Positions 58,851-63,840 of a stretch of DNA of 64,000 bases are shown piece after piece. Under the pieces are notes generated by a model. That model did not search any database. It was given only the letters and a program-made list of their open reading frames with translations, and was not told the DNA's origin. The stretch comes from an uncultured Chthonomonas sp. (GTDB lineage Bacteria > Armatimonadota > Chthonomonadetes > Chthonomonadales > Chthonomonadaceae): assembly GCA_903919615.1 (NCBI GenBank), contig CAIXIX010000086.1, forward strand, positions 17,980 to 81,979, written 5' to 3'. The translations under genes and the position numbers were made by a program. Numbering within the stretch: the first letter of the stretch is position 1; each line of letters opens with the position of its first letter.

Positions 58851-59640
58851 TGTCCATCTCCTTTGAACCTATTATTAATGTGCAGGCCGACTGGTATATT
58901 ATGGAACACGTTTACCAATCCCTCCGCATTCATGTATGCGCGAATATTGTGCACTTGCGAATTAGATCTAGCGGACCGGCACGGCGTGCGAACGCAACTC
59001 TGGCTGCCGCGTGGGGTTCACTGCCAAAACGAGCTGAGATGGTCGATTTGGGAGGGCAACGCGGCACAACCTCACAATGCGCACGCTGCTTCCAGTCACC
59101 CGCGTATTATGTAGAGGCGCTGCGATAGATTCTGAAACGCGCTGCATGGAATACTGCAAAAGCCGCGTCCCCCTTCTAGTTCGCACGCCGCTACTGATTC
59201 CCGTTCCATCCTCTTCTCCAGCCGATACGGCCCTAACGCGTATAGATTGCCGGACCTTCAATCAGCGAATGCAGAGGTCCGGCGGAGTAAAATAATTGTC
59301 CAATGACCGTCCCTGAATGCAGGCAATGTCGAGGTTATGGGCCTTCTCGCCCTACGGTACCGTCACCATTATCAACGAGTGTCACAGGGCGAGGATCAAT
59401 TTTTTGCGATTCTGCCGCTGTTGCGGCGTGACTATCCGTCGGAGATGTCTGTGCGGCGGCAGTGGTAATCGGACCCGGTATGATTGCCGTTAGCGCAATC
59501 GCTCTGAAAATCATATGGATCAAGGTGCGCTCCTGGATCATTACATTCATTCTTACATTTTAGCGTGAACACATCGTGAAGCGACAATTTAGAGGGCATT
59601 CAACTTACCCATGCACACGTTCGGTTAAGAAACGAAAAAA

Positions 59641-60147
59641 GTGATCACATACTTCGAACAGCCGTGCTTGTGCGGTTGGGTCTACCCATGCACGCTGGAA
59701 GACCTTTCGAATGCGACGGAGAGCCTCCCGGCGGAGGATATTGATGGTCTTAGAGCCATTGGCCTTGCAACAGCAACACGCAAGGATTGCTCTGCAAACG
59801 CGCGATATATAGTAGATCGAGGCCCGGCAATTCACATCTACGCGTTTCCTTCCAACATGATTTTCAGGCAACCTGCTGGAACGAAGCGACCTCTCCTCGA
59901 TCTCCAATGTTTGGTTGAGCTGCGTTACGGCATGAAGATTATCCAGGATGGCAACCGGTTCGACTGTGTCTGGCGCCCGGAGGACCTTCGAGAATTCGTG
60001 TTACGTCACGTTCTGATGCACGAGATTGGGCATCACGTTTATTACAAGAGTCGCATCCAATCCAGCCTCCGACGGACTCCCGGCACAACCGCTTCCGAGC
60101 AGTTTGCAGAGGCATATGCTCTCCGGAACGGTAGTATCAAGGTGTAA
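59641..60147 (+). CDS. Small HExxH (HEIGHH) metallopeptidase-like protein (ImmA/IrrE-like or related)
   Basis: GTG start; LRHVLMHEIGHHVYYKSRI ... SEQFAEAYA (third-ligand-like Glu). Confidence 0.6.
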   Translation: MITYFEQPCLCGWVYPCTLEDLSNATESLPAEDIDGLRAIGLATATRKDCSANARYIVDRGPAIHIYAFPSNMIFRQPAGTKRPLLDLQCLVELRYGMKIIQDGNRFDCVWRPEDLREFVLRHVLMHEIGHHVYYKSRIQSSLRRTPGTTASEQFAEAYALRNGSIKV

Positions 60148-60257
60148 GCCGAACCACAAGTTAGCAGTGGCATGTCTCTGACAGCAGATGAAGCACTTGA
60201 TGTTGAAGCATGCAGAGTTAGCAACCGTCTTCCGGCTGTTTGAAGGTGAAGGACAAG

Positions 60258-60824
60258 ATGACAACCATTTGTGCGGTAAGAAAGTCAAATCGCGTTGCCA
60301 TATCGTGTGACACCTGTGCGAGTTGTGGTGCCAGTGTCGACAGGGCTGGTTACGTCGTTAACCACAGCAAGATTCTATCCATCGGCGAGTATCATATTGC
60401 GCTCACCGGTCCAACATCTGCAAAACTGGCTGTCTCGACATACTTCGAAGAGAATGGGGCGGTTAGTCTCAAGAGCGTCGAAACCATATTTAAAGTCTGG
60501 CTTGAACTGCACCATTATCTAAAAGAGACCTGTTTTTTGCGCGAGCCTAACGATAAGGATAACTCCTATGAATCGAGCGATTTCGATGCTCTCATCGCGT
60601 CGCCGCACGGCATATTTGGGGTAACCAGTCACCGCGCTGTTCAGGAATACACGAAATTCTATGCCTTTGGCCGTGGAGATGAGTATGCGATGGGCGCCAT
60701 GTTTGCCAGTTACGATGCTGAAGACATGTCGGCTGATGCGATTGCTCGACTCGGCGTAGCCGCTGCCGCTGAATTTACCGGTACAACGGTGCTGCCTGCC
60801 GTGGTAAAGATTATTGAAGTTTAA
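60258..60824 (+). CDS. Orphan HslV/proteasome-beta-like Ntn hydrolase
   Basis: MTTICAVRKSNRVAISCDT (Thr1, Asp17), NHSKI (Lys), DFDALIASPHGIF, FYAFGRGDEYAMGAMFASYDAEDMSADAIARLGVAAAAEF. Confidence 0.78.
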   Translation: MTTICAVRKSNRVAISCDTCASCGASVDRAGYVVNHSKILSIGEYHIALTGPTSAKLAVSTYFEENGAVSLKSVETIFKVWLELHHYLKETCFLREPNDKDNSYESSDFDALIASPHGIFGVTSHRAVQEYTKFYAFGRGDEYAMGAMFASYDAEDMSADAIARLGVAAAAEFTGTTVLPAVVKIIEV

Positions 60825-60929
60825 AAAGCGTTGAAACGGTCGAATGCATATATCCTACAGATCCAACACACCCTGAACAGCTCTTTGAGATGCCTACTGT
60901 GATGGGGGCGAACAAGGGTTGGGAAGGTG

Positions 60930-61562
60930 TTACCGCATTAGCCCTGCTATCCGTTCCTGTTGTTCTTCCGATAACTGAGCCATCCAGCTTTCGAAAGACG
61001 ACGCGCCTACCAATCGTGCCGCTTCGCGGAGAGTAACAATTCCCTGCAAATCGAAGGCAAATCGCTGCACTTGTTTGGCGAATTCAAGCGTGTAGATGTT
61101 ACCGCTGATCCGAGCAAGAATATTCAGCCTCTTTTTCGTTTCTCTCAACGCGTAAATCGAATAGGAACTGGTCTCTTGCAGCCTGACATCTTCTACGTAT
61201 TGCGCGTAGTCGTCATAATCGTTCAGACGAAGGAATTCCTGTTGTGTGAGATACGCGAGCATCTCATTTAACCACGGTTGTCGATGCACTCCGCTCCTCC
61301 GCATGGTTACCCGATGGTACATTTCATGACCGAGTAATGTACACAATTGCTCCTGATCGTGGCGTGTCTTATCAATCTCAATCATGTAGCATCTAAGCAG
61401 CGGTGTATGGGAGCAAAGCGACCGGGAGAAATCGCGATGGATCTGGTAGGGTAGATGTGGGTCGCACGGTTCACCGAAATGCTCCACGCAGAAATCATAT
61501 GCACGCGGTGCGATGCTTGCAAGATACATGTTTTCAGCCTTCTTAGCCTCTGTTACTGCCAT
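60930..61562 (-). CDS. Putative gluzincin-type metallopeptidase
   Basis: LCTLLGHEMYHRVTMRR followed by PWLNEMLAYLTQQEF (HExxH plus downstream Glu). Confidence 0.55.
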   Translation of the reverse strand: MAVTEAKKAENMYLASIAPRAYDFCVEHFGEPCDPHLPYQIHRDFSRSLCSHTPLLRCYMIEIDKTRHDQEQLCTLLGHEMYHRVTMRRSGVHRQPWLNEMLAYLTQQEFLRLNDYDDYAQYVEDVRLQETSSYSIYALRETKKRLNILARISGNIYTLEFAKQVQRFAFDLQGIVTLREAARLVGASSFESWMAQLSEEQQERIAGLMR

Positions 61563-62068
61563 TTGTGCACCTCCTTACAAACCTCGACCACGACAATTAT
61601 TTCAAGTCGTAACCCATGCCGGTCAGAATGCCCTCTTGCGTACCCCTTGGATGGATTAAAAAGCAGTCGATAGATCGCCGCACAGGAGTCGATGGCGATA
61701 CCATCAGCCCGTTCGCCGCCCCACACCCTGGGTAATTGTCGGCCCAGCATCGCAGACAGTGCTGGGCCGAGCGCAGGCAGCAAAGCTAGAATCGGTAATC
61801 TCGTTACTGGTGGCAGACCGAATCGCTTCAGGATCATGTTGATCGGATTGCCCGGCGAGATGGTAATCGTTTTACCCGACGAATATTTGATGGGAAAGAC
61901 ATCTTCTTCCGGCGGAAACCCAATTGCCCCGCCGCCAGGCATGGGCGGCTCACTGCCTGGTGGAGGAGCAGGTGCAAAAAGGGCAGGCGGTTTTGTAGGG
62001 ATTGGTATCTTATCTGGCTCCGCCGACAAACCAGAAATGATATTCACTATCCGAAGGACTTTGACCAC
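61553..62068 (-). CDS. Pro/Gly-rich protein, probable RHS-type C-terminal tip, possibly frameshifted from upstream RHS core fragment
   Basis: Coherent frame KVLRIVNIISGLSAEPDKIPIPTKPPALFAPAPPPGSEPP... overlapping the end of the RHS fragment; no recognised domain. Confidence 0.45.
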   Translation of the reverse strand: MVKVLRIVNIISGLSAEPDKIPIPTKPPALFAPAPPPGSEPPMPGGGAIGFPPEEDVFPIKYSSGKTITISPGNPINMILKRFGLPPVTRLPILALLPALGPALSAMLGRQLPRVWGGERADGIAIDSCAAIYRLLFNPSKGYARGHSDRHGLRLEIIVVVEVCKEVHKWQ

Positions 62069-62200
62069 AAGCCAATCGGGATCTCATGCCCACTCGGATC
62101 CACCGCATTAACCGGATCATGATCGCAGTACAGATACGGTTTCTGATCCAGATAGGTGTCTCTCGACGCGAATGTGCCTGTCTCAGGATCGTAGTAACGG
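62047..62200 (-). pseudogene. RHS repeat-associated core fragment, copy B
   Basis: RYYDPETGTFASRDTYLDQKPYLYCDHDPVNAVDPSGHEIPIGLWSKSFG* on minus strand. Confidence 0.85.
62086..62200 (-). repeat. 115-bp RHS-core direct repeat, copy B
   Basis: Aligns without gaps to 63714-63828. Confidence 0.9.
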
Positions 62201-62332
62201 CAGCCACAAACAGGGAATAGGGACCAGGGACGCAGGGATCAGCACCGACACGCCGGGACCAGGAAAAACGGAACAGTGCTTCTTACTCGGTAGCTGGTTC
62301 TTATTCTAAATTAGCCGTTGCCAACCGAAGCT

Positions 62333-62637: not shown

Positions 62638-63366
62638 CTAGTCTGTTTGCGTGATTCCTGTTTGCGATTTAAGCGGAGCATCGCTGCTTAAGACAACAGG
62701 CGCTCGCAGCAGTTCGGCAGACCTTTGCTGTGACGGTCCAGAGGGCCTGCAAAGCGTCAACTCATCCGCCGCTAAGAGCGTCCTACGCTCAATCTTCTCG
62801 ATGGATTGCGTCGCAAGGGCCACAATATCTGGACGCACTTTTGAATGCAATGCTGCTCTCGACAGCCGTCTAACCTGTGGCAGTACTGCAGGGCTCGCAA
62901 CATTTCCCAGGACAACGAGCGTCGCCCTTAAATATTCGTCGCAACCATTTCGCAGGCTGTCGGCCAATGCAATTATCTGCTCCGACGTCAACTCCGCTTG
63001 CTCCGCCGGAGAGCTTTCCGAAATCCTCGTAGCGAGCGATACCTCAATCCGACGTCTCACGCTGCGCGGACGCCAGCCTTTCGCGGCTAGCAAAGCGCAA
63101 AGCGACGCCAGATCTGCTTGCGCACCGGGACGCGTTAACAAACCCGCTGCTCGTTTTATGCTGGTAACCGACAACATAATTTGTCCAGCCAAACCTGTAT
63201 ACGCGACAACAAGGGCAAACCACCCAGCCTTGTCACTTTCAGGTTTGAACGCGCTTAAAACAATAAAGGGGCCAGCAATCGCCAGCAAAGCGATTGGAAT
63301 ACTGCGCGCAACAAGCTGGGATATCCTAAAGGCCCTCAATGCAGATGCGACTTCTCTGTCATGCAT
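62638..63366 (-). CDS. Membrane protein with two N-terminal TMs and helical-repeat-like cytoplasmic region
   Basis: IPIALLAIAGPFIVLSAF, WFALVVAYTGLAGQIMLSV; repeated helical segments. Confidence 0.6.
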   Translation of the reverse strand: MHDREVASALRAFRISQLVARSIPIALLAIAGPFIVLSAFKPESDKAGWFALVVAYTGLAGQIMLSVTSIKRAAGLLTRPGAQADLASLCALLAAKGWRPRSVRRRIEVSLATRISESSPAEQAELTSEQIIALADSLRNGCDEYLRATLVVLGNVASPAVLPQVRRLSRAALHSKVRPDIVALATQSIEKIERRTLLAADELTLCRPSGPSQQRSAELLRAPVVLSSDAPLKSQTGITQTD

Positions 63367-63452: not shown

Positions 63453-63840
63453 CTACATCTCCTTCAGTTTCTGTGGCATCGCCGCCCAGATATGAGGATA
63501 CATGTCACGGTTTCTCCCAACTTCGTCACCTGGCTCGTGTATGTCCTTTACTGGCTTATCGAGGCGCTGTTCCACCGCTTCAAGTTTGTGCATATATAAT
63601 TCGTACGGTATCGAAATAACTCCGATCGTTATCAGTACCCCCCCAGCTATAGGCATATTATAGTTCACCAAACCACACCCGAGACCAAAGCACGCTAAGT
63701 CTGTGATCATGATATGCCCACTCGGATCCAACGCATTCACCGGATCGTGTTCACAGTACAGATACGGTTTCTGATCCAGATAGGTATCTCGACTCGTGAA
63801 CGTGCCCGTTTGTGGATCGTAGTAACGGACTAGCTGGCCG
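63453..63840 (-). CDS. RHS repeat-associated core (copy A) with hydrophobic C-terminal tip; N-terminal part disrupted or outside window
   Basis: GQLVRYYDPQTGTFTSRDTYLDQKPYLYCEHDPVNALDPSGH then IMITDLACFGLGCGLVNYNMPIAGGVLITIGVISIPYEL... Confidence 0.75.
63714..63828 (-). repeat. 115-bp RHS-core direct repeat, copy A
   Basis: Same length as copy B, no indels, high identity. Confidence 0.9.

Follow-up and report, generated by a model that had tools for sequence, protein, structure and literature searches.

The DNA window analyzed here (the whole stretch of 64,000 nucleotides, from an uncultured Chthonomonas sp.) encodes a divergent bacterial proteasome homologue (BPH), whose nearest relatives in both sequence and fold are BPHs and not HslV, Anbu or the 20S proteasome (Table 1). 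With a probability of roughly three in four, the protein is an extra, self-contained peptidase encoded beside an array of Rhs cassettes. In a preliminary description the gene had been read as an orphan HslV that forms a two-gene module with the preceding HEIGHH metallopeptidase gene. Both open reading frames were found as described, the gene is real and its assignment to the Ntn hydrolases was correct; the subfamily was wrong and the module is unsupported. Family, fold, catalytic set and the absence of a conserved pair were established in the present analysis, and the modest novelty lies in a deep-branching BPH with altered Thr1 surroundings and a threonine nucleophile outside the Betaproteobacteria.

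Table 1. Features of the BPH locus and the adjoining Rhs debris (window positions).
Feature	Position	Strand	Basis or remark
Small zincin-type metallopeptidase, MHEIGHH...SEQFAEAYA	59641..60147	+	GTG start, 168 aa; not a conserved partner of BPH
Shine-Dalgarno-like AAGGA	60248..60252	+	directly 5' of the BPH ATG at 60258; read from sequence
BPH-family Ntn peptidase	60258..60824	+	ATG start, 188 aa, begins MTTICAVRK; phmmer match to 5ovs, AlphaFold model, alignment of 37 BPHs
Second small zincin-like gene, HEMYHR...WLNEMLA	60930..61562	-	between BPH and Rhs debris; ORF and family alignment
ORF that follows a Rhs core end in another reading frame	61553..62068	-	orphan or decayed Rhs tip; preceding core end at 62199-62100
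Rhs core-end remnant	62100..62207	-	Rhs_assc_core match G000:C86:80065-80184
Second Rhs core-end remnant	63728..63827	-	

When the product was compared by phmmer with solved structures, the BPHs of Thiobacillus denitrificans (Td-BPH, 5ovs) and Cupriavidus metallidurans (Cm-BPH, 5ovu) were matched with E-values of 4.6e-50 and 1.1e-29, respectively, while HslV structures reached 0.8-0.9 only. Identity to the Thiobacillus BPHs was ~46-49%. Scores with two HslV models were 25.7 and 25.2 bits against curated cut-offs of 137 and 157.75, and the score with the Pfam Proteasome model was under its cut-off as well. An AlphaFold2 monomer model, for which 37 BPH sequences served as input, was obtained with a pLDDT of 86.5 and a pTM of 0.85 and contains the complete Ntn fold. 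With this model, Foldseek placed BPH chains on all of ranks 1-6 (TMq 0.91 to 5ovt and 5ovs) and HslV after them (TMq ~0.7). The Ntn fold was thus borne out by model and search, whereas the orphan HslV reading was discarded, as the protein lies far under the HslV cut-offs and BPHs are much nearer by phmmer and Foldseek. Once the initial Met is removed, Thr becomes residue 1, Asp residue 17 and the lysine of NHSKI residue 37, which is the BPH counterpart of proteasome Lys33 (PMC5777263). The Thr1/Asp17/Lys set proposed earlier was therefore confirmed with Lys37 as its third member, and the resemblance is far beyond chance. A scan with one genome per species yielded 207 encoded relatives, and the best 80 of these 207, which were kept, are mostly labelled Betaproteobacteria or other Proteobacteria.

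BPHs belong to the least understood relatives of the proteasome, with structures solved and no known substrate or partner. They form homo-oligomeric double rings, seven-fold in solution, with the active sites in the interior; the catalytic residues are Thr1, Asp17 and Lys37 together with Gly50 and Ser139, and epoxomicin was bound at Thr1 (Fuchs et al., PMC5777263). A survey from 2021 placed BPH centrally in a bacterial group with HslV (PMC8665760). The protein described here shares with Td-BPH (5ovs, 5ovt; PMC5777263) the fold, the length, Thr1/Asp17/Lys37/Gly50, an apparently long pore loop and the lack of an adjoining unfoldase gene. It differs in being 46% identical, in Arg138 in place of Ser139, in a Cys-rich stretch at residues 16-22 instead of the LTKW block, and in a gene context that is not arg, PDC or Hsp33. 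The extended, acidic pore loop of BPHs lies between H2 and S7; its putative counterpart here has the sequence REPNDKDNSYESS and is less acidic than that of Td-BPH, and in the model it corresponds to the low-confidence stretch 94-100, before ESS. With HslV the protein has in common the Ntn fold, the Thr nucleophile and a proteasome-type C-terminal half, but its pore loop appears longer, no hslU adjoins the gene and the genome carries a separate HslV (contig C423, L117), with HslU on C474 and a 20S-like pair on C290. This alpha/beta pair (L116, L118) stands alongside HslV, HslU and BPH in one bacterium.

In agreement with the preliminary description, no AAA+ gene was found within several kb of the BPH gene. 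This absence is normal because BPH has no known unfoldase; BPHs were characterized without a partner unfoldase, and pulldown found no partner (PMC5777263). Independence from an unfoldase, also claimed earlier, was therefore right in substance but had already been published for BPH (PMC5777263). By homology, cleavage of the Met would expose Thr1, and the subunits may assemble into a two-ring cylinder, seven-fold in characterized BPHs, with Thr1, Asp17 and Lys37 facing inside. Such a cylinder might cleave small or unfolded peptides that need no ATPase for entry, in line with what has been proposed for BPHs in general, and both the type of substrate and the activity itself are predicted on this basis. 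BPH would then be an accessory addition to the HslV, HslU and 20S-like pair that the cell already possesses in its genome.

Within the family the protein stands apart. In the alignment of 37 BPHs, Asp17, Lys37 and Gly50 are invariant and all three are present here along with Thr1. Where the other BPHs show conservation of 90% or more, this protein deviates at 14 positions, seven of which fall within residues 19-28; the sole other member that deviates as much, with 15 deviations, is L100 from an Acidobacteria bin. The conserved block DTLTKWGxGKES reads DTCASCGASVDR, a Cys-rich replacement, and Cys16, Cys19 and Cys22 surround Asp17. The Ser139 site is occupied by Ser in 31 members, by Thr in three, by Ala in two and by Arg in this protein alone (Arg138), a residue found there in no other BPH locus examined; the Ser139 that hydrogen-bonds Thr1 in characterized BPHs is absent here. 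Ser139 is not strictly BPH-defining, since Ala or Thr takes its place in some members. In the tree, the protein forms a long branch close to the family's base and has no well supported sister; its placement is uncertain. Arg138 and the Cys-rich block may reduce, change or regulate activity, and a deep-branching BPH with a changed Thr1 environment is a useful natural variant with which to learn what residues are required in BPH.

A tentative alternative to the active peptidase is a catalytically dead or weakened BPH, whose cylinder, owing to Arg138 and the altered S1-side block, would bind but no longer cleave peptides. The uniqueness of Arg138 among the BPHs compared points in this direction, as do the long terminal branch with its unusual composition and the 14 deviations including the DTCASCGASVDR block, with which the protein may be inactive or altered. 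In the yeast proteasome, Ser129, which matches the Ser139 site, forms with Asp166 a second triad, for which a role in protonating the amine of Thr1 has been proposed (PMC4792962). Against the active peptidase it also counts that standard substrates gave no detected activity with BPH (PMC5777263) and that the literature consulted records no measured peptidase activity for any BPH. The genome that encodes the present protein also holds a decayed paralogue, a BPH fragment on contig C267 (L002), which corresponds to the first 47 codons before the frame diverges and stops. It has the Cys-rich block in common with the complete protein and ends before the Arg138 site. Against loss of function stand the retention of Thr1, Asp17, Lys37 and Gly50, the fact that Ser139 itself gives way to Ala or Thr in some BPHs, and the comparison of this short fragment with the complete gene (dN 0.057, dS 0.407, dN/dS ~0.14; NG86, 47 codons), which suggests, on a small sample, purifying selection on the codons of BPH and its paralogue. 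Rather doubtful is a further proposal, that the rebuilt surroundings of the active site make the activity switchable by redox state or metal binding, or that they turn the protein into a non-cleaving, peptide-binding cylinder.

The BPH gene borders Rhs cassettes, as stated earlier, whose core ends lie at about 62.1 and 63.8 kb. It is improbable that this Rhs array carries BPH and the zincins as cargo with immunity-like or processing functions towards the Rhs tips. The genome contains 47 Rhs core-end matches, these two included, many on short contigs, which fits the cargo idea but also makes proximity to Rhs weak evidence; the arrays seem to break the assembly of this genome, and the window ends with the contig. 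In genome G012, Rhs tips flank a relative of the HEIGHH gene, and the second zincin gene, which the earlier two-gene picture did not mention, overlaps the end of the Rhs tip ORF by 10 bp. Overlap with the end of a tip ORF is the usual position of an immunity gene. This zincin probably goes with the Rhs cassettes and not with BPH. The BPH and HEIGHH genes, however, are on the strand opposite to the Rhs remnants, and a Rhs core-end motif was found neither in the flanking sequence examined for the three other BPHs of the phylum (L176, L177, L178) nor on the contig of the paralogue (L171). A suspected similarity of the 62638-63366 product to the gene beside the zincin on C404 proved not to be real.

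For neither zincin-like family was a Pfam entry over threshold obtained (the HEIGHH product has a sub-threshold match to Zincin_1), and no convincing solved relative was found for either. His127, Glu128, His131 and Glu153 are invariant in the HEIGHH family alignment; a single-sequence structure model of this protein was unusable (pLDDT 34.8). The two families have 23 and 15 holders among the 292 genomes of the phylum, and 9 genomes hold both (p 8e-8, with no correction for phylogeny); in G026 (C619) and G034 (C345) they are 1-2 kb apart. One relative of the second zincin in the own genome (L115, on C404) carries a C-terminal extension and has lost HExxH, reading SMMYY instead. Part of this family is therefore probably not peptidase, judged from the motif.

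A module in which the HEIGHH metallopeptidase and the Ntn peptidase cooperate is very improbable. The two genes share a strand with a gap of 110 bp, and a simple scan of 59300-61700 revealed no plus-strand promoter-like site and no terminator-like site. The genome holds a partial second copy of each gene, but on different contigs (C128, C267) and with no sign of pairing. Among the 292 genomes of the phylum, BPH was detected in four and a HEIGHH relative in 15 by single-sequence search or 23 by profile; three of the four BPH genomes are among these 23 (p 0.0016 without correction for phylogeny), yet zincin relatives stand alone in many genomes. In G035, BPH and the HEIGHH relative are on different contigs, with BPH ~22 kb inside its own, and in G008 the contig end truncates BPH, whose upstream side, which alone is visible, showed no HEIGHH relative. 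Flanks of up to 6 kb at the best 80 of the 207 BPH loci contained no relative of either zincin, and a restricted pattern found no HExxH motif in 80 immediate neighbors at 41 loci. HEIGHH relatives are also present on Variovorax, Priestia and Fulvitalea plasmids, and where these are annotated no proteasome-like neighbor is listed. Outside the own genome no copy beside BPH was found, the outcome that the preliminary description had itself named as a refutation; hence the pair is not a conserved module, and the partner that BPH lacks is not the adjoining metallopeptidase. The GC content of the BPH gene (0.497 versus 0.547 in the other genes of the window, z -2.15) and the typical one of the HEIGHH gene (z -0.62) are weakly compatible with separate histories. 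The HEIGHH gene would accordingly be an independent zincin, on the same strand by chance.

The suggested affinity to phages or defence was not supported. A phage or plasmid origin was rejected, as neither the viral contigs of IMG/VR nor the plasmids of PLSDB yielded a BPH and the phage matches are distant HslV-like proteins in five Klebsiella phage records (PHROG 1040), which share the proteasome-like fold family but, with 29% identity over 79% of the query, are far more distant than BPHs. A defence system was rejected because PADLOC gave no match, and the portion of a polymorphic-toxin survey text that was available mentions neither proteasome nor HslV.

Finally, the nucleophile departs from the published distribution, in which Ser1 was reported for every BPH outside the Betaproteobacteria (PMC5777263). 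This rule fails for the present genome and for one locus labelled Blastocatellia (L046), both of which have Thr. Conversely, Ser was found in three loci with betaproteobacterial-type labels (L036, L077, L089) as well as in L009 from the same phylum, and thus the Ser/Thr split does not follow the class boundary, with the reservation that bin labels of single loci may be wrong. Thr is likewise read in L003, which comes from the same genome family, although ATC would have to serve as the start codon there and the start is unsure. The BPH frame on contig C69 of G035 (L010) lacks the N-terminal strand and Thr1, has a stop upstream and is probably a decayed BPH.
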